Below, one piece after another: positions 25,823 to 36,900 of a stretch of DNA of 48,244 bases. The position numbers and the translations under genes were made by a program. Numbering within the stretch: the stretch's first letter is position 1; every line of letters starts with the position of its first letter. Below the pieces are notes generated by a model that saw only the letters and a program-made list of their open reading frames with translations, had not been told where the DNA came from and made no database searches. The DNA comes from an uncultured Lachnospiraceae bacterium (lineage in GTDB: Bacteria; Bacillota; Clostridia; Lachnospirales; Lachnospiraceae), in contig CANQUG010000023.1 in the NCBI GenBank assembly GCA_947626985.1, forward strand, positions 1-48,244. The letters are read 5' to 3'.

Positions 25823-25909
25823 GCTTTTTTTCCTCCTTAAACGCATTTGGTAATTTCGCTCCTGCGGATGTGTTACAGGGGCAGTTGTTTTTATTGGTTT
25901 CTGAGGCTG

Positions 25910-25938
25910 ATTATACCCTTTTTCCCAGGAAAAGTCAA
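25910..25938 (-). promoter_or_regulatory. Sigma-A promoter of the BMC operon
   Basis: On the minus strand TTGACT (25933-25938), a 17-base spacer and TATAAT (25910-25915) form a near-perfect sigma-A promoter. Transcription should start near 25903, leaving an 80-base leader before the aldolase ATG. It can serve all genes down to the terminator at 9528-9573, over 16 kb. Confidence 0.9.
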
Positions 25939-25950
25939 GGTATTATTGTG

Positions 25951-25992
25951 GTTTTATGTTGTTTTTGTTCGGTTTTTGTTTTGTTTTTATTT
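25951..25992 (-). promoter_or_regulatory. Candidate DeoR operator: helically phased direct repeats
   Basis: Plus-strand GTTTTTGTT at 25961 and 25972 and GTTTTTATT at 25983 repeat with 11-bp period, and a related GTTTTATGTT starts at 25951. The block ends 12 bases upstream of the -35 hexamer. Several DeoR-family proteins bind direct repeats of about this spacing, and a DeoR gene lies in the operon. The link is inferred; a T-rich UP-like element is an alternative. Confidence 0.5.
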
Positions 25993-26072
25993 GAATTCTG
26001 ATTTTTTATCCGCAGCGGAGGAAATTTCCTCTTCCACAGCGCAGAAACAGGCCGGATGAACAGGCATTTTAT

Positions 26073-26117: not shown

Positions 26118-26411
26118 TCAGAGGCCCTGCTCCCTGACCTTTCTCATCAGTTCCGCAATTTCGTTGTATTTTCCCACCACATGGCCGTAATTCTCCCGTC
26201 TGTGGGGAACCAGACATCCTTTACAGTCCTTCCGCCCCTGTTCTGTGATGCGGAAATTTCCGCCGCACTTTTCTCCCAGCGCGTACAGCGGACAATAGCA
26301 GAACAGACAGTTGAAATCGTCCGGGTCCGCCCCTTTATGGCAGGGGAAAAACTCGCATTTTTTATGGCTGAAATAAGAATATTCCTTTCCGTCCCAGTAA
26401 TTTTTTTCCAT
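26118..26411 (-). CDS. Cysteine-rich small domain protein
   Basis: Protein of 97 residues with a dense Cys/His pattern: HKKCEFFPCHKG, FNCLFCYCPLYALGEKCGG and KDCKGCLVPHRREN. It looks like the cysteine-rich small domain family (PF04071 type), proposed to bind metal; members occur alone or fused to corrinoid-related proteins, which is notable beside a B12-dependent locus but not proof of function. GGAGGCGTGTA precedes the ATG at 26411. It is followed by a strong terminator and preceded, 27 bases away, by the methyltransferase gene on the same strand, so the two may be one unit. Confidence 0.8.
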   Translation of the reverse strand: MEKNYWDGKEYSYFSHKKCEFFPCHKGADPDDFNCLFCYCPLYALGEKCGGNFRITEQGRKDCKGCLVPHRRENYGHVVGKYNEIAELMRKVREQGL

Positions 26412-26438: not shown

Positions 26439-27200
26439 TCACACTGCCGTTTTTCTTGCCCGAAAGCGAATGCGCACATAGTCTATGATCCACTTCCCGT
26501 TTCTGTGCAGAACGCTCTCCAGCTTTACATTCGCTTCCTGTAAAATGGACTCCTTCAGATCCGGCTCCATGCCCTCGAATGGTGCTTTCACAAACATATT
26601 GATCCAGTCCGTCAGCCCGTCCTCCGACTGCTGCACCGTGGGCCGGTCAAACAGCAGCGCATATTCCACCCGCAGGCCGTGTCTTTCCAGAATGGGAGCG
26701 TACTCTCCGATGGTCGGAAAATAAAACGTGCGCGGATACTGAAGTCCCCGCTCCTCAAAACATTTCTCCAGTGTGGAATGCACCGCTTCCGCGCAGCCAT
26801 ACCCGCCGAACTCACACACCAGTTCGCCTCCGGGCTTTAACTGCGCCGCCACATTTCCTACCAGCCTGTCCTGATTTTTTCCGTCGATCCAGTGAAATAC
26901 CGCATTGGAAAAAATGGCGTCAGCCTTCTCCTCCAGCTGAAATTCCATGGCGTCGGAAACCAGAAACCGCAGCTGAGGGTATGTCTTTCTTGCCAGAGCG
27001 ATCATGCTTTCGGACGCGTCCACCCCTGTGACCGCATACCCCTTTTCGGATAACGTTTTGCTCAAAACACCGTTCCCGCAGCCCAAATCGATCACCCGGC
27101 TGCCCTCCTTTACCGTAAGCAGATTCATCACGTCTTCCCCGTACCGGGGCACAAAGGAAAACCGCTCCTTATAACCATCCGCGTCCCACGTAATATTCAT
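26439..27200 (-). CDS. SAM-dependent class I methyltransferase (trans-aconitate methyltransferase-like)
   Basis: Protein of 253 residues with a Rossmann methyltransferase domain: motif I VIDLGCGNGVLSKTL, GVDASESMIALAR (acidic loop), LVSDAMEF and AIFSNAVFHWIDGK. The N-terminal WDADGYKERFSFVPRYGEDV and the FNAVFHW-type segment match the trans-aconitate 2-methyltransferase group, but substrates in this group vary. AAAGGAGATGCTTT precedes the ATG. It is probably cotranscribed with the cysteine-rich protein downstream. Methyltransferase activity is secure as a class; the substrate is unknown. Confidence 0.85.
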   Translation of the reverse strand: MNITWDADGYKERFSFVPRYGEDVMNLLTVKEGSRVIDLGCGNGVLSKTLSEKGYAVTGVDASESMIALARKTYPQLRFLVSDAMEFQLEEKADAIFSNAVFHWIDGKNQDRLVGNVAAQLKPGGELVCEFGGYGCAEAVHSTLEKCFEERGLQYPRTFYFPTIGEYAPILERHGLRVEYALLFDRPTVQQSEDGLTDWINMFVKAPFEGMEPDLKESILQEANVKLESVLHRNGKWIIDYVRIRFRARKTAV

Positions 27201-27379
27201 AAAGCATCTCCTTTTTATTATCAGATGAAAAAGAGCCGCCGCGAATGGCCTCGTTCTCTGTCCTTTTGCGGGGGGGCCGGAAACGAATCCGTTTTCCGAA
27301 AAAGCGCCCTGAAAATCCAGACGAGAGCCACTCTCCGACAGCTCCTTATGTATTCACTACAGATTACCGACCGGGCAGA

Positions 27380-28666
27380 TCAGAACAATCCCGGGAAAAT
27401 GGCCTTGGGAATCGCCAGCCACAGATCCGGCATCAGAATCATCAGAAGCAGTACAGCCAGTGATGACAGGAAGTACGGCATGGTTCCCTTAAAGGCATCC
27501 TCAATGGTGATGCCGCTGATGGAAGACGCGATCAGCAGACACAGACCATAGGGAGGCGTTACCAGACCAAGAGCCAGAGTAACAACGATGATCAGGCCAA
27601 GGATGATCGGGCTGATTCCAAGAGAAGTCGCTGCCGGAAGAATGATCGGAACAAAAAGGATCATAGCCGGAACAGCGTCCATGAACGTACCCACAAACAT
27701 AAAGAACGCCACTACCACCAGAAGGAATACCAGTTTTCCGCCCGGCATGTTTGCGAAGAATCCCTGCACGATCACGTTCAGCTGATAGTAGCTGAGCAGC
27801 TCGCCAAGAGCGTTGGCCGTCGCCAGCGCGAACAGAGACAGAGAAGAAAGCTTCATGGTCTCGATGAGGATTCTCGGCAGATTTTTAATCTTGATGGTCT
27901 TGTAGAAGAAAATACCAACCAGCAGAGCATACACGCAGGCAAACGCCGCGGACTCTGTGGGTGTGAACAGACCGGACACGATACCGCCGATCAGAATGAT
28001 GGGCGTAAGCAGTGCCGGCAGGGACTGGAATACCAGTCTCAGGATTTCTTTTACTTTAACCGGCGCACACTGGGGGAAGTTCTTCTTCTTGGAGTACATT
28101 TTTATCACCAGCATCATGGCCAGGCCCAGCAGAATACCGGGCACCAGACCTGTCATAAACAGGGCGCCTGTGCCTACATTGGCAATGCCGGAATACACCA
28201 CCATGGTGATACTTGGCGGGATGATGGAGCCCAGCGTGGACGACGCCGCGGTTACGCCGACGGAAGTTCCCTTGTCATATCCCTGTTTTTCCATGGAGGG
28301 GATAAAGATCTTGCCGACGCCCGCGGTATCCGCCTGTGAAGAACCGGAAATACCGGCGAAAATCATGGACACCAGTACGTTGGAGTACGCAAGTCCGCCG
28401 CGGAAACGGCCTACCAGAGCGTTGCAGCAGTCGATGAGCTTCTCTGTAATTTCTCCCTCATTCATGAGGTTTGCCGCCAGGATGAACAGCGGAACCGCCA
28501 GCAGCGTAAAGCTGTTCATACCGTTAAACATCTTCGAGAATACAACCGTATTCGGAATCGCCGGCATAGCCATAATACCGGTAAAAGATACCACTCCGAG
28601 AGCAAAGGAGATCGGCACGCCTATGGCGACAAAAACAACAAACATAATAACTAATAACGCGCCCAT
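27380..28666 (-). CDS. dctM: TRAP transporter large permease (DctM family)
   Basis: Integral membrane subunit of 428 residues with about twelve hydrophobic helices. It begins MGALLVIMFVVFVAIGVPIS and has family segments FTLLAVPLFILAANLM, GISGSSQADTAGVGKIFIPS, FTPTESAAFACVYALLVG and VTPPYGLCLLIASSI. It drives sodium- or proton-coupled uptake of an organic acid with DctP and DctQ. Its start overlaps the stop of the small permease by one base. Last gene of the operon. The 180 bases up to the methyltransferase gene show no gene and only a weak hairpin near 27281-27301. Confidence 0.94.
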   Translation of the reverse strand: MGALLVIMFVVFVAIGVPISFALGVVSFTGIMAMPAIPNTVVFSKMFNGMNSFTLLAVPLFILAANLMNEGEITEKLIDCCNALVGRFRGGLAYSNVLVSMIFAGISGSSQADTAGVGKIFIPSMEKQGYDKGTSVGVTAASSTLGSIIPPSITMVVYSGIANVGTGALFMTGLVPGILLGLAMMLVIKMYSKKKNFPQCAPVKVKEILRLVFQSLPALLTPIILIGGIVSGLFTPTESAAFACVYALLVGIFFYKTIKIKNLPRILIETMKLSSLSLFALATANALGELLSYYQLNVIVQGFFANMPGGKLVFLLVVVAFFMFVGTFMDAVPAMILFVPIILPAATSLGISPIILGLIIVVTLALGLVTPPYGLCLLIASSISGITIEDAFKGTMPYFLSSLAVLLLMILMPDLWLAIPKAIFPGLF

Positions 28667-29151
28667 TATTTCTTATCTCCTTTCCCGAAATTTACAAATT
28701 CGTCGATCAGCTGCGCGATCAGATAAATCGCGGATGTTCCTCCGCAGATCGGCAGACACAGCCAGGTGGGTCCTCTCTTGAACTGAGGCAGAGTCACCCA
28801 CGTATAGTTCCAGAACTGCTTGGTCACCAGAATTCCATAATACACCATCAGTACTGAGAAAAACAGCATGATCAGCGTAATGATGATCGCCAGAACGGAT
28901 TTCGCCGCCTGATTTTTTAACATATCGCTCACAGAAGTAAAAGCAAAATGGCGCTTTTCATAAACCATGGCGCCCGCTCCCATAAACACGGCCCAGATAA
29001 ATGCATACATGGAAACATCCTGTGTCCAGGTAACGGAAATCCCCAGATAACGGCAGACGATCTGAATCACCACCGTAACAAGGAAAATGCAGAGGAAACA
29101 TCCGCCAACCGCAATCTGTATCTTCTGCAGCATTGCAATCGCATTTTTCAT
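28666..29151 (-). CDS. dctQ: TRAP transporter small permease (DctQ family)
   Basis: Membrane subunit of 161 residues with four hydrophobic helices (VGGCFLCIFLVTVVIQIVCR, VSMYAFIWAVFMGAGAMVYE, IIITLIMLFFSVLMVYYGIL, and a last one near WLCLPICGGTSAIYLIAQL). It pairs with DctM. The start at 29151 (MKNAIAMLQKI) has AAAGGTGG upstream; an in-frame ATG at 29193 would add 14 residues. It lies downstream of the intergenic hairpin that follows dctP. Confidence 0.9.
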   Translation of the reverse strand: MKNAIAMLQKIQIAVGGCFLCIFLVTVVIQIVCRYLGISVTWTQDVSMYAFIWAVFMGAGAMVYEKRHFAFTSVSDMLKNQAAKSVLAIIITLIMLFFSVLMVYYGILVTKQFWNYTWVTLPQFKRGPTWLCLPICGGTSAIYLIAQLIDEFVNFGKGDKK

Positions 29152-29204
29152 AGTTATAAACCACCTTTCAGCGAAAAGTACGGGCTGTTTCATACTCTTA
29201 AGAA

Positions 29205-29227
29205 GGCCGTCCGGATTCCGGACGGCC
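29205..29227 (-). other. Intergenic stem-loop between dctP and dctQ
   Basis: GGCCGTCCGGA (29205-29215) and TCCGGACGGCC (29217-29227) form a perfect 11-bp stem with almost no loop, without a U-tract. Such hairpins behind binding-protein genes commonly protect the upstream mRNA and let the binding protein be made in excess over the permeases. Confidence 0.8.
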
Positions 29228-29286
29228 TCCTCAGTTTTCGTTCAGTATGATACAATCCCTTTCATGACAGGCTGTCGCGCACGGAT

Positions 29287-30300
29287 TTATTCTGCAGCCG
29301 CGCGAACCATCTCCAGATACTCTGTCATGTTGTTCTTTTCTGCAAACTCATCCTGAATGGGAACAGCCAGTTCCTTAAACGCGTCGATGTCGATATCCTC
29401 AAATTCGGTAACGATCGCGCCGTCATCGATAACCTGCTGTTTGGACTCATCGAACATTCTGTAAACAACCTCGCGCTCCTCAGCGGTAGCCGCCTCAACA
29501 GCCTCGTCGATCCAGCCCTTCTGCTCATCGGTCAGGCTGTCATAGAAATTGCCGCTCATCAGGAACAGACGCGTGGTGTAGTCATGATGTGTCTCACTTA
29601 CATACTTGCCGTTGTCGGTCTTATGATGATCCTTCAGCATGAAGTTGGTGTAGTCGTTCTCAGCGCCGTCCACAACGCCCTGCTGAAGAGCCTGATAAAG
29701 CTCGCCCCATGCTACTGTGGTGGGAACCGCGCCGCAGGCCTCGAAGAACTGCTTCTGTACCGCGGAATCCTGTGTACGGATGCTCATACCGTCCAGGTCT
29801 GCCGGGCAGGTGATCGCTTTTTTCGCATATATGTCACGAACGGAGGAGGACCAGTAGCCCATCACGCGGAAACGATTGCCTGTCTTCTCGTTGATCAGTG
29901 TCTTCATCGCATCGCCGAACTCGCCGTCCACTGCCGCTTCCCAGTGATCAAAGCTGTCGAACAGATAAAGGAGTGAGAACATATCCACCTCCGGCACGCC
30001 GATGGAGGTCATAAAGCCCGGAGACGCAACTACCATGCTGGCAGCGCCCATTTCCAGTTTTTCGATCAGCTCGGACTCATTCTCGCCCAGAGTTCCGTGA
30101 TGCAGGGTAACTTCAATGGCACCATCGGACAGGTCTTCCACAACCTCTTTGAACTTAATGATACCATAGGCATAAGGGTTTTCCAGAGACGTCTGATTGT
30201 GTGCCACGATCAGATTCAGGTCTGCGGCAGATACAGTGCTTGCAAATGCTCCTAACGCCACAACGCCTGCCAGTAAAGCTCCTAAGATCCTCTTTTTCAT
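29287..30300 (-). CDS. dctP: TRAP transporter substrate-binding protein (DctP family)
   Basis: Exported solute receptor of 337 residues. The signal peptide is MKKRILGALLAGVVALGAFA with cleavage near STVSAADL; there is no lipobox cysteine. The DctP fold shows the conserved carboxylate-binding arginine in LDGMSIRTQDSA, and NPYAYGIIKFKEVVED and ALQQGVVDGAEN. TRAP receptors of this group bind organic acids, mostly sugar or keto acids. GGAGGATG precedes the ATG. It is followed by a stem-loop and then the permease genes. Confidence 0.94.
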   Translation of the reverse strand: MKKRILGALLAGVVALGAFASTVSAADLNLIVAHNQTSLENPYAYGIIKFKEVVEDLSDGAIEVTLHHGTLGENESELIEKLEMGAASMVVASPGFMTSIGVPEVDMFSLLYLFDSFDHWEAAVDGEFGDAMKTLINEKTGNRFRVMGYWSSSVRDIYAKKAITCPADLDGMSIRTQDSAVQKQFFEACGAVPTTVAWGELYQALQQGVVDGAENDYTNFMLKDHHKTDNGKYVSETHHDYTTRLFLMSGNFYDSLTDEQKGWIDEAVEAATAEEREVVYRMFDESKQQVIDDGAIVTEFEDIDIDAFKELAVPIQDEFAEKNNMTEYLEMVRAAAE

Positions 30301-30455
30301 TAATACATCCTCCTGTCATTCATTTTGTTTTTTTATTTTCACAGCATCACTCTGCTGTAAAATACTCTTAACATGATTGCGGGAGCGCAAAGCTCAGAGC
30401 AATCCATGCATCACTGAGGGCAAAATACCTTTTGGCCCCATCATCATACCATTCA

Positions 30456-30920
30456 TCAGAGCAGAGCCATGCTCACTTTTACAACCACCTTGCGCACCGT
30501 CATGGACGTTCCGCTTATCAGCGCGGGCCGGTGCACATCCGCCGGGAAAAACATGGTGTAGCATCCCGGAACCGCCTCAACATAGCCTTCATTCTCCACT
30601 GATTTATAAAAAATAAGGTCGCGTTCTTCGATACGCTCATCCACCTCATAGTTTCCGGTATCCCAGGTAAAGCCAAGACGTTCTTTTCCGGATGCCAGGA
30701 ACTGTACGTCCACATATTTTTCATGAACCTCCGGACGAACCTCCTCCGGCTCTTTGGTCTGCGCGTCAAATACCTGCGCGTAGATCTCTTTTCCCTGGAT
30801 TTCATATACGCCCGGTTCCATATTAACAAAATCATTGGATTTTAAATACTCCAGCGCCTTCTGGATCGCCTTCGGATAGGTATTTACAATATCCTTCGCA
30901 TAAATAGATGAAAAAATCAT
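30456..30920 (-). CDS. yiaL: YhcH/YjgK/YiaL family protein
   Basis: Cytoplasmic cupin-like protein of 154 residues in the family named for YhcH, YjgK and YiaL, thought to act on sugar acids (isomerase or anomerase role). Features are MIFSSIYAKD, DVQFLASGKERLGF, GCYTMFFPADVHRPAL and VRKVVVKV, with the metal-type His/Glu pattern around EVHEKYVDVQF and ADVHRP. In Escherichia coli YiaL sits next to YiaK and a TRAP transporter (YiaMNO), the same trio as here. AGGGAGGGATGCAAGACC precedes the ATG. The 155 bases before dctP hold a short stem-loop (ACAGCA/TGCTGT) and no gene. Confidence 0.9.
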   Translation of the reverse strand: MIFSSIYAKDIVNTYPKAIQKALEYLKSNDFVNMEPGVYEIQGKEIYAQVFDAQTKEPEEVRPEVHEKYVDVQFLASGKERLGFTWDTGNYEVDERIEERDLIFYKSVENEGYVEAVPGCYTMFFPADVHRPALISGTSMTVRKVVVKVSMALL

Positions 30921-30941
30921 GGTCTTGCATCCCTCCCTTTT

Positions 30942-31946
30942 TTACATCGCGCGGACTGTCTCCCACACTTCTTCGATAGCCGGAATCCCCAGCTCCATGT
31001 TCTCCTTCACGGCCTTTGCCACCCGCTCTCCGGGATACAGCACCGGTTTTCCCTCCTCAAGGGGCTCGGATGTTTTCAGGTCCGCAAGAATGCCGTCCAC
31101 AATCTCATCTGTAAGCTCCGTGGAATTCAGTTTTCCGGGATCAATGGCGATCATCACCTGGGACAATCCCACTTCATCCCCGAAGGTACCGATTTTTGCA
31201 ACAGAATGGCCGTTCGTAAGGATCGTCGCAATCAGATCCAGCGCGATGGAAAGACCGCTGCCTTTCCAGTAGCCCATGGGAAGCACGCGCCAGGTCTTCT
31301 CAATCTCAGCGGGATCCGTCGTGAGATTTCCCTGGGTATCATAGCCTCCCGGCACGGGAAGGGGTATGCCCTTCAGCTTGCAGTCCTCCAGTTTTCCGTA
31401 GGAAAACTGGGACAGCGCGCAGTCCACCACCACATGTTCCCCGTTGCTTCTGGGGACCGCGAAGATAACCGGATTATTCCCGATCTTACGGTCTCTTCCT
31501 CCCCAGGCCGGCATATTGGGCATCGTGTTGGACCAGCAGATCCCGATACAGCCGGCGTCCGCCGCCTGCCAGCCGTAGCTGCCGCCCCGCATCCAGTGAT
31601 TGTTATTGCCCAGGGCTACCAGACCGATACCGTACTGCTTCGCAAGCTCAATGGCACGGTCCATGGCCCGTTTCGCATTCAGCGGACCCATACCGCGATG
31701 TCCGTCCCACCGCTCCATCAGACCTGCGCTCATCTCACAGGTAGCCGTATTTTCCGGCTTGATCTCTCCCCTGTCCAGATAATCCACCACACGGGGAAAC
31801 CGGTTCAGTCCGTGAGAGGGCACTCCCGCCAGACTGTTCTGCGTAAAGATAAACGCGGCGTCTTCGGCTCCCTTCTCGTCAAAGCCCTTTTTCATCAGCA
31901 CCCGCTTAAACTCCTGAAACATGTCATCGTATTTGATCCTGAGCAT
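30942..31946 (-). CDS. Ldh2-family dehydrogenase (YiaK / malate-lactate type)
   Basis: NAD(P)-dependent oxidoreductase of 334 residues in the malate/L-lactate dehydrogenase 2 family that includes YiaK (2,3-diketo-L-gulonate reductase). Typical segments are AGVPSHGLNRFPRVVDYL (substrate histidine), VALGNNNHWMRGGSYGWQA, GICWSNTMPNMPAWGG, IGNNPVIFAVPR and GYWKGSGLSIALDLIATIL. GGAGGAATTTACCT precedes the ATG. Gene order beside YhcH/YiaL and TRAP genes supports reduction of a 2-keto or diketo sugar acid, but no kinase or decarboxylase of the diketogulonate route is present. Confidence 0.92.
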   Translation of the reverse strand: MLRIKYDDMFQEFKRVLMKKGFDEKGAEDAAFIFTQNSLAGVPSHGLNRFPRVVDYLDRGEIKPENTATCEMSAGLMERWDGHRGMGPLNAKRAMDRAIELAKQYGIGLVALGNNNHWMRGGSYGWQAADAGCIGICWSNTMPNMPAWGGRDRKIGNNPVIFAVPRSNGEHVVVDCALSQFSYGKLEDCKLKGIPLPVPGGYDTQGNLTTDPAEIEKTWRVLPMGYWKGSGLSIALDLIATILTNGHSVAKIGTFGDEVGLSQVMIAIDPGKLNSTELTDEIVDGILADLKTSEPLEEGKPVLYPGERVAKAVKENMELGIPAIEEVWETVRAM

Positions 31947-32062
31947 AGGTAAATTCCTCCAATAAAATCAGAATTCTTCCTTATTTCTTTGTATATCATA
32001 TCACACAATTTTACAAATATCAACCTGTCTTTATGCGTATTTGCCAGAAAAGCCCAGGGACA

Positions 32063-32974
32063 TTATTGTTTTTCTTCCATTGCGTGAACCATTTCCACCA
32101 GAAATTCATGAGTGGGCGCTGGCACATGGTATTTCCTCGCCGCCCGTACCACAGAACCGCTGATCGTGTCCACCTCCGTCTTTCTGCCGTCCCGCAGATC
32201 CGCCCGGATGGACGTACAGCCGTTGGGAGATCCCTCCGATGTTTTTTTCACCTTCTCCAGAATGGCGCTCTCATCAAAGGTCAGCCCCATGGCCGCGGCC
32301 ACCTCCACAGCCTCATGCACCAGCTGCTTCGTCATGTTCCAGGCATGGGCGTTGCCCGCAATATATCCCATATCCACCTGAAGGATGCCGGTAACCGCGC
32401 TCAGGGATACGTTGGTAAACAGCTTGTCCCAGATCAGCTGCTGGATATTCTCATGAATATTCACCTTAAAGCCGCAGGCGTCAAACGCTTCCTTCAGCTT
32501 CGGCAGGAAGCCTTCCTTATCTTCTGTGAGCATTCCCACATTTGTCCTGCCCTCTCCGCCATGACGGATATGACCCAGTCCCAGCACCGCGCCGTTATCC
32601 TCCGTGGTGCCGATGATAATATGATCCTCCCGCACAAACTCGGAAAGAATGTCCTCATGGCCGGAGCCGTTCTGCAGGGTCAGCACGTAGGTGTTTTCTC
32701 CGATCAGGCTCTGGTTGCCCTTCAATGCCGCGCGGGAGAACAATGCTTTTACAAACAGGATGATCAGGTCCACATTCTCCAGGCCCTCCGTGGAGGAGAC
32801 CGCCTTCGGATGATAGGCCACATCCTCTCCGTTCTCCTGTAAAATCAGTCCGTTGGCCTGCAGATGATCCACTACCGCCTGATTGGTGTCTACAAGATAT
32901 ACGTCATTGTGCAGGGACAGATGCCCGCCATATATGGAGCCCATGGCGCCTGCGCCGATAACTGCAATTTTCAT
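32063..32974 (-). CDS. Ketopantoate reductase-like dehydrogenase (PanE/ApbA family)
   Basis: NADPH-dependent 2-keto-acid reductase family protein of 303 residues. The N-terminal Rossmann motif is MKIAVIGAGAMGSIYGGHLS, and the catalytic lysine region is VKALFSRAALKG. The C-terminal helical domain has LIWDKLFTNVSLSAVTGILQ and the family end PAPTHEFLVEMVHAM. Because it lies inside a catabolic operon with another dehydrogenase and a hydrolase, a role on a 2-keto acid of the imported substrate is more likely than pantothenate synthesis, although the latter cannot be excluded. AAGGAGGATTTTTT precedes the ATG. Confidence 0.85.
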   Translation of the reverse strand: MKIAVIGAGAMGSIYGGHLSLHNDVYLVDTNQAVVDHLQANGLILQENGEDVAYHPKAVSSTEGLENVDLIILFVKALFSRAALKGNQSLIGENTYVLTLQNGSGHEDILSEFVREDHIIIGTTEDNGAVLGLGHIRHGGEGRTNVGMLTEDKEGFLPKLKEAFDACGFKVNIHENIQQLIWDKLFTNVSLSAVTGILQVDMGYIAGNAHAWNMTKQLVHEAVEVAAAMGLTFDESAILEKVKKTSEGSPNGCTSIRADLRDGRKTEVDTISGSVVRAARKYHVPAPTHEFLVEMVHAMEEKQ

Positions 32975-33001
32975 AAAAAATCCTCCTTGCGTTTTATTCC
33001 G

Positions 33002-33685
33002 TCATGAAAATTCCGGCAGCCCTTCGATGGCATACGCGCGGATCGGGCAGGAATCCAGCCCCTTGATGGGCAGCGGAGAATATGACATAAAGAAGGTATC
33101 CGTGGACAGCTCCTCCAGATTTTTCAGCACCTCAAGAAATACCACGTCCACCTCCATCAGAACATCATGGAACGCAGAGACGTCTGTATTATTGCTTTCA
33201 ATGGACACGCCGTCGCCGAAGCCCACGCACTTTACCTTCTTTTCCTTCAGCCACTCCGCAGTCTCGCGGCAGATGAACAGACGCTTATCCTCCTCCGTAT
33301 TGGAAGCCGGCGTAAAGGGAGGCAGCTTCATGGGAGAATCCAGGATCACGATATCGCCCTCCTTGATTCTGTCGCCGCAGGCCTTCTCCAGATCCTCTCC
33401 CTTAATTTTGTCATTGGGGCCCATGTGTGTGATGTTCACATAGATCGCCCGTCCCATAAAGGTAGTGATGGGCAGCGACTGCACGTCATGCCAGTCGTCG
33501 TTGTGATGGTAGGGACACTCCACATGGGTGCCTAGGTGGCTGGTCAGGTCCATGATGGTGTGAAAGTCCGGAATCGGGCCTCCTGTATTAAAACGTGTCA
33601 GACCGCACCTTCTCGTTTCTGTTTTGGGATCCAGAACCTTTGTCAGATCCACTACTCTTAAATTTCCCATTTGATATACGCTCAT
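33002..33685 (-). CDS. Cyclase family metal hydrolase (kynurenine formamidase-like)
   Basis: Hydrolase of 227 residues in the cyclase/KynB family, metal enzymes that open amide or lactone bonds. The metal motif is seen in TSHLGTHVECPYHHNDDWHD, with later IVILDSPMKLPP and ADD-like VGFGDGVSIESN. The start at 33685 (MSVYQMGNLR) has AAAGGAGGATATCGC upstream; the in-frame start at 33703 would contain that ribosome site. In this operon it may open a lactone or cleave the imported acid before the dehydrogenases act. Substrate unknown. Confidence 0.87.
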   Translation of the reverse strand: MSVYQMGNLRVVDLTKVLDPKTETRRCGLTRFNTGGPIPDFHTIMDLTSHLGTHVECPYHHNDDWHDVQSLPITTFMGRAIYVNITHMGPNDKIKGEDLEKACGDRIKEGDIVILDSPMKLPPFTPASNTEEDKRLFICRETAEWLKEKKVKCVGFGDGVSIESNNTDVSAFHDVLMEVDVVFLEVLKNLEELSTDTFFMSYSPLPIKGLDSCPIRAYAIEGLPEFS

Positions 33686-33719
33686 GCGATATCCTCCTTT
33701 CATTTTTCATCTTTATTTA

Positions 33720-34649
33720 TTACATTCCGCTGAGCGTTCCCGCCACAGCAATCAGTAACGGCATTGTGATAATACAAAGCAGTGTGCTCTGCGCGATAGA
33801 CTGCGACGCGGTCCGGGTATCCCGGTGGAACTGCTGGGCAAACATCCCCACAGCCGCCGCAGTGGGACAGCCGATGGAGATCACGATGGACAGGTACATG
33901 GTGGTATCCATATGAAAGGGCAGCAGCGCCAGCATAACCGCCGCAGGAAAGATAATCAGCCGCAAAGCGCTGATCAGATACAGCTTCTTATCCAGAAAGG
34001 TTTCCAGAATGTCCGCCGACGCCATCTGCGCTCCGATCACAAGCATGGCAAGGGGCGTGTTCAGACTGCTCATAAACTCCATGGCCCGGTCCACGGGCGC
34101 AGGCAGGGCAAGCCCCGTGACAAACAGCAGAAAGCCTGTGGAAAATCCGATCACACCGGGATTGATCAGCGCCTTTTTTAAGGAAATATACTCCTTCCCT
34201 CCCATGACGGCGACTCCGTGGGTCCAGGTAAAAATATTGATGACCACGGATCCGATCACGCCATAGAGAATCGCCTCGTCTCCCAGCACGGACTGCAGGA
34301 GCGGCAGGCCCATAAACAGCGCGTTTCCGTAAACGGCCGCACTGTTTAAAGAGGCCCTGGTGTCTTCCGGCTGCTTCCGGAACAGGACCCATGCAGTCGC
34401 CGCGCATACGATATATATGAAAATAAAAGTAATTCCTGTCATCCCGAAAATACGCAGGGTCTGAGCATTACACTCATCCGGCATATTGGTGATGATGATG
34501 CAGGGAGTGACGATATAAAGCAGTATCCGCGTCATCTGGCTGCGGGTCCCCTCGGAAAACCATCTCATTTTCGCCAGCACAAATCCCAGCAGCATCATCA
34601 GAAGCAATGTCAGCACATTGCCTGCCACTAATATCATATTCGAAATCAT
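33720..34649 (-). CDS. AEC family transporter (auxin efflux carrier / malate permease type)
   Basis: Membrane carrier of 309 residues with about ten helices, among them VLTLLLMMLLGFVLAKM and FGMTGITFIFIYIVCAATAW, and the family half-repeat segments NAALFMGLP-like YGNALFMGLPLLQSV and SIGCPTAAAVGMFAQQF. It is first in the operon, ahead of the cyclase, two dehydrogenases and a TRAP uptake system, so it could export an end product such as an organic acid or add a second uptake path. A promoter lies 140 bases upstream. The ribosome site (ACAGAG) is weak. Confidence 0.9.
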   Translation of the reverse strand: MISNMILVAGNVLTLLLMMLLGFVLAKMRWFSEGTRSQMTRILLYIVTPCIIITNMPDECNAQTLRIFGMTGITFIFIYIVCAATAWVLFRKQPEDTRASLNSAAVYGNALFMGLPLLQSVLGDEAILYGVIGSVVINIFTWTHGVAVMGGKEYISLKKALINPGVIGFSTGFLLFVTGLALPAPVDRAMEFMSSLNTPLAMLVIGAQMASADILETFLDKKLYLISALRLIIFPAAVMLALLPFHMDTTMYLSIVISIGCPTAAAVGMFAQQFHRDTRTASQSIAQSTLLCIITMPLLIAVAGTLSGM

Positions 34650-34929: not shown

Positions 34930-35006
34930 TTCGTTTCTCTTTCATATGCTGTTCAGTTTCTCTTTCATATGTTCAGTTTCTCTTTCATATGTTCATTTTC
35001 TCTGAA
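34930..35006. repeat. 20-bp tandem repeat, about 3.5 copies
   Basis: gttcagtttctctttcatat is repeated perfectly at 34951-34970 and 34971-34990, with a degenerate copy before (34930-34950) and a partial one after (34991-35006). It lies in non-coding sequence between the AEC promoter and the terminator at 35010-35030. Confidence 0.9.
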
Positions 35007-35009
35007 AAT

Positions 35010-35030
35010 AAAAAAAGACGCCTGCGCGTC
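35010..35030 (-). terminator. Short terminator ending the riboswitch transcript
   Basis: Minus-strand GACGC-gcag-GCGTC followed by TTTTTTTATTTTC. The stem is only five G-C-rich pairs but the U-tract is strong. It sits about 190 bases after the riboswitch terminator and would stop read-through before the AEC operon promoter. Confidence 0.65.
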
Positions 35031-35202
35031 AAATTTCTTTTTCGAGGTGCGACACTACTTCGGGGTAGACAATGATCCGTTCAAAAAAATATGCGGAGGG
35101 AACGAACACAACCGAAGCAGTATCGCCTGCCATTTAATCACACCCTCTTCCGGGCGCATCGCCGTCACCGCAAACGCGGTCAGGGCGGTATGTATAATTC
35201 AT
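35029..35202 (-). other. Two abutting mini-ORFs downstream of the cobalamin riboswitch
   Basis: Between the riboswitch terminator and the second terminator the only reading frames are a 22-codon ORF (35134-35202, MNYTYRPDRV...) and, directly after its TAA and in the same frame, a 34-codon ORF (35029-35133, MAGDTASVVFVPSAYFFERI...) with GAGGG ten bases before its ATG. Neither resembles a family I know. They could be a decayed gene with one stop, a genuine small peptide, or chance frames in a non-coding RNA. Confidence 0.3.
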
Positions 35203-35221
35203 ATGAACAGGCGCATTCCAT

Positions 35222-35247
35222 AAAAAATGTCTGCCTTAAAGCAGACA
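35222..35247 (-). terminator. Riboswitch expression-platform terminator
   Basis: Minus-strand TGTCTGC (35241-35247), loop TTTAAG, GCAGACA (35228-35234), then TTTTTT: a textbook intrinsic terminator. It follows the cobalamin aptamer by about 60 bases. The upstream stem TTCCGGGA/TCCCGGAA (35251-35276), extended by ACAAC/GTTGT, overlaps the 5-prime flank and may be the competing structure. Confidence 0.88.
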
Positions 35248-35304
35248 ACGTTCCGGGACTGCGGAATTTCCCGGAATTGGTTGTTACACTTTACACGGAA
35301 GGTT

Positions 35305-35485
35305 AACCTCGCCATACGAAGCAGGTTTCCTGACTCCAGAATCATCGCTCCTTCTCCCCTTCTCATACCTGCGGTACAATGGGATGCCGAGAACTCGCTC
35401 CTCTGTCACAGTGACCGGATCGCTCAGGACTCTCACCTGATTCCCTCTTCTGCTCACCATGCGGCTGATGAACAGCACTTCATAT
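35305..35485 (-). promoter_or_regulatory. Cobalamin riboswitch
   Basis: The minus strand carries the ordered conserved parts of the adenosylcobalamin aptamer: AGAGGGAATCAGGTG (core GGGAA at 35441-35446 region), AGAGTCCTGAGC, CCGGTCACTGTGAC, GAGAAGGAGCGATGA and the B12 box AGTCAGGAAACCTGC (35321-35335, consensus AGYCMGGAGACCTGC). It has a strong promoter just upstream and an intrinsic terminator downstream, so it should terminate transcription when the vitamin is abundant. No recognisable corrinoid gene follows. Confidence 0.93.
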
Positions 35486-35511
35486 GTTCAATATGGAATT
35501 ATACTGGAGAT

Positions 35512-35541
35512 ATCATACCACTGTTATCCGGATAATGTCAA
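35512..35541 (-). promoter_or_regulatory. Sigma-A promoter of the riboswitch transcript
   Basis: Minus-strand TTGACA (35536-35541), 18-base spacer, TATGAT (35512-35517). The spacer contains the perfect palindrome TTATCCGGATAA, which could be a repressor site. Transcription should start near 35505, just before the aptamer. Confidence 0.88.
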
Positions 35542-35764: not shown

Positions 35765-36328
35765 ATGCCAAAATTACTGGATCTGTTTCTTACCTTCGCC
35801 CGGATCGGCGGACTGACCTTCGGCGGCGGCTACGCCATGCTTCCCATGCTTCAGAAGGAGGTCATCGAGACGAAAAAATGGGCCACAGAAGAAGAAGTGA
35901 TGAATTATTACGCCGTAGGTCAGTGCACCCCCGGCATCATTGCCGTAAACACCGCCACCTTCATCGGGTATAAAACCTGCGGAATCCCGGGCGGAATTTT
36001 CGCCACACTGGGAGTCGTCTTTCCCTCCCTTGTAATTATTTCCATCATTGCCGCTTTCATCACCAACTTCGCAGAGCTGGCTGTGGTAAAAAACGCTTTC
36101 GCCGGAATCCGCGTCTGCGTCTGTGTGCTGATCCTGAACGCGGTGGTCAAGCTGTTTAAAAAATCGGTGATCGATATCCCCACCGCCGTTCTTTTTATTG
36201 TGATTTTCATCGGATCCATACTGACCGATATTTCTCCCATTATATTTGTGATCGCGGCGGGCGCCGCGGGCATCATTATCCAGACTCTGACCCAGAAGGG
36301 AAAAAGTGAAGGAGGGAAGCAGGCATGA
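35765..36328 (+). CDS. chrA: ChrA chromate transporter, N-half protein
   Basis: Membrane protein of 187 residues, one half of a split CHR-family transporter. The family signature is at the start: LFLTFARIGGLTFGGGYAML then PMLQKEVIE, followed by YAVGQCTPGIIAVNTATFIG and several helices up to IIIQTLTQ. Short CHR proteins act as pairs and export chromate or a related anion by an unproven mechanism. The next gene overlaps its stop by ATGA, so the two halves are coupled. AGGAGACTGCATC precedes the ATG. Confidence 0.92.
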   Translation: MPKLLDLFLTFARIGGLTFGGGYAMLPMLQKEVIETKKWATEEEVMNYYAVGQCTPGIIAVNTATFIGYKTCGIPGGIFATLGVVFPSLVIISIIAAFITNFAELAVVKNAFAGIRVCVCVLILNAVVKLFKKSVIDIPTAVLFIVIFIGSILTDISPIIFVIAAGAAGIIIQTLTQKGKSEGGKQA

Positions 36329-36900
36329 TTTATCTTCAGCTGTTTTTTGAATTTTTTAAAGCGGGACTTTTTGCCATCGGCGGAGGACTGGCCACACTGC
36401 CCTTCCTGTCCGATATCGCGGATAAAACCGGATGGTTCACCCACGGGGACCTGGCGGATATGATCGCCATCTCCGAGTCCACGCCCGGGCCCATAGGAGT
36501 TAACATGGCCACCTACGCCGGTTTTAATACGGGAGGCATTCCCGGCGCCGTGATCGCTACTCTGGGTCTGATCTGCCCCTCCATTATTATCATCATCGCC
36601 ATTGCGAAAATTCTGGACAAATTCCGGAAAAGTCCTCTGGTAAACCACACCTTTTACGGCCTTCGCCCCGCATCCGTGGCCCTCATAAGCGCCGCGGGCA
36701 TCATGGTGGTAAAGATGGCTCTCCTGGATATGGACGCCTTTCATGCCTCGGGAAATATCCTGGATATGATCAAATATAAGGAAGTCATCCTGGCTGTGGC
36801 GCTGTTCTTCCTCATAAAAAAATTTAATAAACTGCACCCTGCAGTTTTCCTGGCAGGTTCTCTCGCCGTAGGAATTATCCTTCGCCTGGGAGGCGCCTGA
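36325..36900 (+). CDS. chrA: ChrA chromate transporter, second half protein
   Basis: Partner half of the split CHR transporter, 191 residues, with the same signature in mirrored form: FFEFFKAGLFAIGGGLATLP, AISESTPGPIGVNMATYAGF, GGIPGAVIATLGLICPS, then helices ending in FLAGSLAVGIILRLGG. The start overlaps the first half by four bases. The two proteins differ enough to be a normal heteromeric pair, not a broken gene. A strong hairpin terminator follows at 36982-37058. Confidence 0.92.
   Translation: MIYLQLFFEFFKAGLFAIGGGLATLPFLSDIADKTGWFTHGDLADMIAISESTPGPIGVNMATYAGFNTGGIPGAVIATLGLICPSIIIIIAIAKILDKFRKSPLVNHTFYGLRPASVALISAAGIMVVKMALLDMDAFHASGNILDMIKYKEVILAVALFFLIKKFNKLHPAVFLAGSLAVGIILRLGGA

Follow-up and report, generated by a model that had tools for sequence, protein, structure and literature searches.

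A cobalamin riboswitch followed by a conserved, structured and probably non-coding RNA in a Blautia lineage

The stretch of DNA analysed here over its full length of 48,244 nucleotides (the window) comes from a Blautia lineage and contains, on its minus strand, a cobalamin riboswitch unit that is not followed directly by a gene. As judged from its sequence, the stretch behind the first terminator of this unit is a conserved, structured and probably non-coding RNA without a match in Rfam. The position of a B12 sensor before a conserved RNA, not a gene, suggests that B12 is used to control a regulatory RNA, and a B12 riboswitch-gated autonomous RNA with a trans regulatory role of its own is the best explanation of the unit, one to which we give an even chance. 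The orphan appearance of the riboswitch unit is genuine, its partner having been displaced, not lost.

The complete unit claimed in an earlier note on this DNA (promoter, B12 aptamer, terminator, approximately 190 nt and a second terminator, all on the minus strand) was confirmed in each of its parts. Its features are listed below, together with the usual partner gene of the RNA and the gene cluster that separates the two.

35512..35541, minus strand: sigma-70-type promoter, TTGACA-18-TATGAT (TTGACA 35541-35536, TATGAT 35517-35512), 11/12 consensus
35496..35504, minus strand: 5'-terminal leader GTATAATTC, complementary to 35200-35192
35303..35497, minus strand: cobalamin riboswitch aptamer, RF00174, 101.5 bits against a cut-off of 31.5
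35222..35247, minus strand: terminator 1, stem 35247-35228, then T6 / U-run to 35222
35042..35223, minus strand: conserved structured RNA domain, model R1, 130.4 bits, no Rfam family
35208..35213, minus strand: CGCCTG, 5' strand of a helix, pairing with 35129-35124
35192..35200, minus strand: GAATTATAC, partner of the 5' leader
35141..35191, minus strand: variable insert of type A loci, two small hairpins in the predicted fold
35130..35139, minus strand: GATTAAATGG, near-invariant strand
35124..35129, minus strand: CAGGCG, 3' strand of the helix, pairing with 35213-35208
35049..35126, minus strand: long covarying hairpin, two helices, seven pairs changed on both sides
35093..35102, minus strand: TTCCCTCCGC, near-invariant C-rich loop
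35010..35030, minus strand: terminator 2, stem 35030-35017, then T7 / U-run to 35010
26439..34649, minus strand: gene cluster separating the RNA from the PF04071 gene
26118..26411, minus strand: gene for a PF04071 cysteine-rich small protein, the usual downstream partner of the RNA, displaced; 98.7 bits at 26139-26381

The aptamer is a full-length match to RF00174 (model positions 1-189 of 189). Both promoter boxes were visible by eye in most aligned relatives, in which the position of terminator 1 was likewise terminator-like by eye. Between 34600 and 35800, both strands included, four terminator-like sites were found against 1.2 expected and seven promoter-like sites against 2.5 expected. 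The absence of a corrinoid gene behind the unit was borne out: the next genes on the same strand encode an AEC transporter, a cyclase, a ketopantoate reductase-like protein, a dehydrogenase, YhcH and TRAP proteins. The promoter attributed to this next operon was found as a weak candidate only (9/12, at 34816-34788), and the count of two mini-ORFs behind terminator 1 has to be corrected to four ATG frames of 13 to 34 codons. Directly behind terminator 2, GAACATATGAAAGAGAAACT on the minus strand forms three similar copies (34930-34995). Two neighbouring chromate transporter genes (35765-36900) are divergent from the riboswitch unit. The genome itself, a 4.08-Mb draft in which the window is contig 23, has six cobalamin riboswitch matches; on contig 130, two cobalamin riboswitches are arranged in direct tandem, 7 nt apart (L093:69-253 and 261-439).

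Apart from RF00174, no Rfam family reached its cut-off in the window, and the best weak match of the RNA domain (35223-35042) was SAM_VI, with 20.5 bits against a cut-off of 57.5. The 213 nt from 35222 to 35010 folded better than 200 of 200 shuffled versions (z -3.75), and the fold of 34990-35300 gave a z of -5.74. Structure was counted over 22 named pairs in 45 loci (42 distinct) of the window's genus, g1. The underlying alignments (A1 and A2) comprise 45 of 48 rows, leaving out L080, which meets a contig end, and the divergent L075 and L092. The 22 pairs were formed in 98.4% of cells and those of slid controls in 24 to 45%, a comparison in which the structure is favoured over its slid versions because it was drawn from the same 45 sequences. 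Changes on both sides of a pair (seven pairs, 43 cells) reached a level seen in 0 of 500 shuffles; the number of further pair types was unexceptional (89 of 500 shuffles).

Five pairs of the CGCCTG/CAGGCG helix were formed in 99.5% of cases and are almost invariant (alignment A1), and as this helix hardly varies within the genus, the evidence that it provides is weak. L151, from outside g1, carries CACCTG/CAGGTG instead, and one of the four counted pairs in the corresponding helix of genus g29 (CCUG:CAGG) does not form in 6 of 15 loci. The g29 RNAs also have a covarying hairpin of another kind, with a UCCCGCAAC-like loop and changes on both sides in five of its six pairs. The GATTAAATGG strand is retained with small changes in the other genera, and the variable insert is missing or different in loci that are not of type A. 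The CTCCGC loop is also found in L151, in all 15 g29 loci and in two of the four loci of genus g196 (L178 and L179), being absent from the other two.

The RNA was present in 47 of the 64 genomes of g1, at 48 loci. The DNA of the unit matched 50 of these genomes, three of them (G400, G417 and G448) in an aptamer stretch only. All 48 sources were matched by the covariance model, 45 having been used in building it; the three outside model building scored 97.8 bits (L075), 78.7 bits (L080, cut by the contig end) and 54.4 bits (L092). A family-wide draw of 397 genomes added four further genomes with the RNA beyond g1. One weak match in that draw, L155 of G233 (26.3 bits), was taken as false; its fetched stretch contains no cobalamin riboswitch. 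Outside g1, the RNA was found in 14 of 20 genomes of g29, in four of five of g196 and in G136. RF00174 lies within about 250 nt upstream of all 20 loci from these three genera, and a cobalamin riboswitch was visible in all 45 aligned loci inside g1. At the order level, a pattern search returned 9 of 392 genomes, confined to g1, g29 and g196; since this pattern permits short spacers only, type A loci like that of the window were missed. A class-level model search with strict filters returned one of 391 genomes, the window's own, and plasmid and phage collections contained no match. An exact scan of named species genomes with an 18-base motif of the RNA gave 45 stretches. Forty coincide with RNA loci, and those with a genus name are Blautia; the remaining five (L103, L111, L112, L114 and L137) match no fetched RNA locus and were taken as chance. 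As a Candidatus Blautia merdavium record is a g29 locus, both g1 and g29 include genomes called Blautia. Two riboswitch-RNA units occur in one genome in G424 (L049 and L053) and in G470 (L167 and L177).

In all 67 loci from four genera, as in the window, the 5' leader of the transcript (GUAUAAUUC) finds its complement, GAAUUAU(A/G)C, behind the terminator, with one terminal mismatch each in L085 and L152. Changes in the two strands are mostly wobbles; the one compensated change, from U-A to C-G, occurs in L152. The exact leader 9-mer was not seen in the five other cobalamin riboswitches of the genome, one of which (L093) has GTACAATTCC upstream of its aptamer. In pseudoknot-free folds of 44 RNAs, the mean probability of the leader helix was 0.24 compared to 0.38 for local pairing with the GAUUAAA strand in its place, so that the two may compete. 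Unlike in the usual RF00174 setting, what comes next after the aptamer is not a gene but a structured RNA domain with complementarity to the 5' end of its own transcript.

Among the 46 g1 loci for which the PF04071 gene could be located, it starts less than 500 nt from the RNA motif in 43, at distances from 94 to 492 nt. It also follows the RNA in four g196 loci and in L151 (five loci of g196/g137), and in g196 the RNA hairpin abuts the ribosome-binding site (RBS) of the gene. A PF04071 search found none at L080 and L082, where both RNAs lie at a contig end. In the window, the gene is intact and lies 8726 nt (8.7 kb) from the RNA motif. The intervening cluster encodes an AEC transporter, a cyclase, PanE-like and 3-dehydro-L-gulonate dehydrogenase-like proteins, YhcH, TRAP DctP/DctQ/DctM and a methyltransferase, and by its gene content looks like a system that takes up and oxidises a carboxylate or a sugar acid. 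None of the cluster genes was found in the loci of 47 relatives (about 6 kb on each side, or to the contig end). In 13 of these 47 loci, the fetched stretch shows the first genes of a bacterial microcompartment (BMC) operon downstream of the RNA and on its strand, and the gene order of the window therefore reads as an insertion. Other sequence also lies between the RNA and the PF04071 gene in L073 (5.8 kb) and L051 (1.0 kb).

The RNA of the window shows no sign of decay. Of the columns that at least 90% of the other loci conserve, 81 in all, it departs in one (median, 1), and its model score of 130.4 bits lies inside their range. Likewise, the RNA of L073 is intact. Aligned over 459 positions, the unit and that of the best-matching relative, L047, show 65 differences, which means that changes had room to accumulate; a recent insertion, however, might not yet have left visible decay in the RNA. 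Decay of a target gene at the unit was rejected in view of the intact PF04071 gene 8.7 kb away and the undecayed RNA. The earlier note had considered a lost target gene; the usual downstream gene was instead moved away. Of the refuting outcome named in that note, an intact B12-related gene in relatives together with decay in the window, one half was seen: relatives do have a gene at this point, the PF04071 gene, but the window RNA departs only in the single column given above. Seven genomes (G416, G418, G445, G449, G451, G453 and G454) contain the PF04071 gene and no match to the RNA, nor is a cobalamin riboswitch present in their fetched stretches, which suggests joint loss or contig breaks.

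We propose that the promoter would start a transcript with the cobalamin riboswitch. As cobalamin riboswitches of the terminator type are known to do, the unit would respond to B12 by termination: terminator 1 would end the transcript after about 280 nt when B12 is bound; with B12 in short supply, the polymerase would read into the conserved structured RNA of approximately 190 nt and stop at terminator 2. The read-through product would be a non-coding RNA of approximately 495 nt, the 5' end of which can pair with the site behind terminator 1. In the ancestor the RNA probably stood before the PF04071 gene, and the catabolic cluster would have separated them in the window species. As the RNA and the gene are separated here and unlinked in a second Blautia lineage, the RNA would most likely regulate in trans.

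The second lineage is g29, where the flanks fetched for 15 loci, up to 1.5 kb long, contained no PF04071 gene in any case. In two g29 genomes that were checked, PF04071 lies on another contig, with no cobalamin riboswitch within the fetched 1.5 kb. A terminator-like hairpin follows the g29 RNA in 11 of 15 loci (by eye). As expected of a trans-acting small RNA, the conserved RNA of the window stands apart from the neighbouring gene, between a promoter and a terminator of its own, and the 15 g29 loci likewise lack a flanking PF04071 gene; this persistence without its usual neighbour favours an autonomous role. The reading of the orphan unit as a source of regulatory RNA gains from the structured, apparently non-coding domain and its gene-free occurrence in g29, but the sponge for BMC regulation that the earlier note had in mind does not (see below).

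Against an autonomous RNA stands its location directly before the PF04071 gene in 43 of 46 g1 loci and the five g196/g137 loci, which is as expected of a cis element. This tight linkage speaks for a cis-acting rival, in which the RNA would serve the PF04071 gene as a second leader that regulates in cis, in the form of an antiterminator, an RBS-occluding fold or a second aptamer, and the window copy would be an intact-looking relic after the insertion. We consider this unlikely, although it deserves weight. The hairpin abutting the RBS in g196 fits such a leader, as does a further terminator-like hairpin seen by eye between the RNA and the gene in many type A loci. However, the distance between RNA and gene varies across the 43 loci, the RBS sequences of the gene show no pattern following the loop (by eye), all 15 g29 loci have kept the RNA without the gene in their fetched flanks and the window RNA has not decayed.

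Building on the autonomous reading, we tentatively suggest, with somewhat less than even confidence, that these RNAs form a new Lachnospiraceae family of B12-gated, trans-acting RNAs. Their 5' ends would be sealed by long-range pairing, and their C-rich (mostly CUCCGC-type) loops would be offered to mRNAs or a protein, coordinating metabolism in a way unlike that of EutX/Rli55. Such RNAs would have begun ahead of a gene for a cysteine-rich protein, as its leader, and have become free-standing at least twice. A literature search on cobalamin and orphan riboswitches and on riboswitch-regulated small RNAs, in which subscription papers are thinly covered, returned no description of this RNA among the matches listed, and a search on PF04071 found nothing. 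If true, gut commensals would provide a case unrelated to those known before and open to phylogenetic tracing, together with a natural series, gene-linked at one end and free-standing at the other, in which one can ask how a leader RNA may become an independent regulator. An RNA with a covariance model and coordinates also offers a handle on the response of these bacteria to B12 shortage.

Several candidate targets of the RNA were tried in limited tests, and none was found, which counts against the autonomous reading. The genome contains 51 perfect complements of the C-rich loop (GCGGAGGGAA), compared to nine matches for a reversed control. A start codon follows 2 to 13 nt downstream in only 3 of the 30 occurrences examined, so the excess over the control may reflect codon usage, and targeting of Shine-Dalgarno sequences by this loop was rejected. 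Antisense pairing with the leaders of the BMC operon, where the earlier note had suggested looking for complementarity, or of the PF04071 gene was also rejected, both being unremarkable (z 0.31 and 0.75, respectively, when the RNA was compared with 100 mononucleotide shuffles of itself). Predicted duplexes between the RNA and the starts of 22 genes in the window, some at approximate coordinates, revealed nothing outstanding; three other gene starts gave z of -2.05 to -2.36, which is not remarkable among 22.

An element acting on the riboswitch itself is improbable. In this case, a UUCCCUC loop would pair with GAGGGAA of its own aptamer and reset the riboswitch after read-through. Seven-base complementarity, with G-U allowed, was indeed seen by eye in many g1 loci (alignment A2). 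However, GGGAA is constant in the Rfam cobalamin consensus, so the match may be due to chance, and the complementarity is weak or absent by eye in L180, L152 and g29.

To our knowledge, a B12 riboswitch controls a free RNA, not a gene, in two known cases: EutX/Rli55 and an antisense RNA of Listeria. The latter is a B12 riboswitch-controlled antisense RNA to pocR. With the window unit as proposed here it would share a B12 riboswitch controlling an RNA, not the adjacent gene, and a BMC context. Unlike in Listeria, the strand opposite the window RNA holds only unassigned frames of the ORF list, and the next plus-strand gene begins at 35765, so that there is no antisense overlap with an identified gene. 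In EutX of Enterococcus faecalis and Rli55 of Listeria monocytogenes, a cobalamin riboswitch bearing a terminator gates a non-coding RNA, an arrangement like that of the window, and AdoCbl leads to a shorter form of that RNA (PMC5821096). Unlike these, the window RNA has no ANTAR dual hairpins, no EutV-like neighbourhood was found and its RNA domain is unrelated.

The BMC operon near the unit is B12 dependent, as the earlier note had stated, encoding a diol dehydratase, its reactivase and a cobalamin adenosyltransferase, as well as a DeoR-type regulator. With this operon nearby, its first genes following the RNA in 13 of the 47 loci from relatives, and a like order of B12 riboswitch, terminator and RNA, a sponge of the EutX/Rli55 type comes to mind, in which the read-through RNA would sequester an ANTAR regulator and thereby control the BMC operon. 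Several results make this very improbable. ANTAR-binding dual hairpins carry A at loop position 1 and G at position 4. Paired hexaloop hairpins of this type were found in 0 of 45 g1 and 0 of 15 g29 RNAs, a single one being present in 9 of the 45. The genome, a draft that is 97.6% complete, yielded one ANTAR protein, encoded beside a gene that is presumably glutamine synthetase-like, and no ANTAR regulator of the EutV type, together with a target leader of eut or pdu genes, was found in this draft. Furthermore, the BMC operon encodes a DeoR-type regulator, and the pairing with its leader (z 0.31) is not notable. A protein-binding motif common to the RNA and the BMC leader (ATCCGCAGGA, near 25870 of the window) was rejected, as it is absent from the BMC leaders of the relatives inspected. 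Motifs resembling AAAAACAACA are repeated upstream of the BMC promoter (about 25880-26000 of the window) in many of the relatives inspected and, given the encoded DeoR-type regulator, may be its operators.

That the read-through region encodes a regulatory peptide, the alternative product named in the earlier note, is the least probable reading of all: although the ATGGCAGGCG ATG is kept in 45 aligned g1 loci and in the window (ATG at 35133) has GAGGG about 9 nt upstream, this GAGGG lies inside the variable insert and is missing there in loci without the insert, seven of 45 loci have a different frame between the ATG and the C-rich loop, L092, g137 and g196 have lost the ATG (AAACGG/AAACGA), and the two paired positions that vary most fall on first bases of codons (by eye).

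Tandem arrangements of AdoCbl riboswitches include an AdoCbl/T-box(Val) arrangement in two Blautia species (PMC9481103). It shares with the window unit an AdoCbl riboswitch in Blautia with no clear ORF for a long way behind it. Two g29 loci have T-box leaders (L153:7438-7661 and L154:1976-2200) more than 3 kb downstream of the riboswitch-RNA unit, and unlike in the published tandem it is the RNA that lies directly behind the riboswitch. In L153, a transporter-like ORF and an ORF on the opposite strand lie between riboswitch and T-box. The published tandem (PMC9481103) may concern the neighbourhood of L153 and L154.
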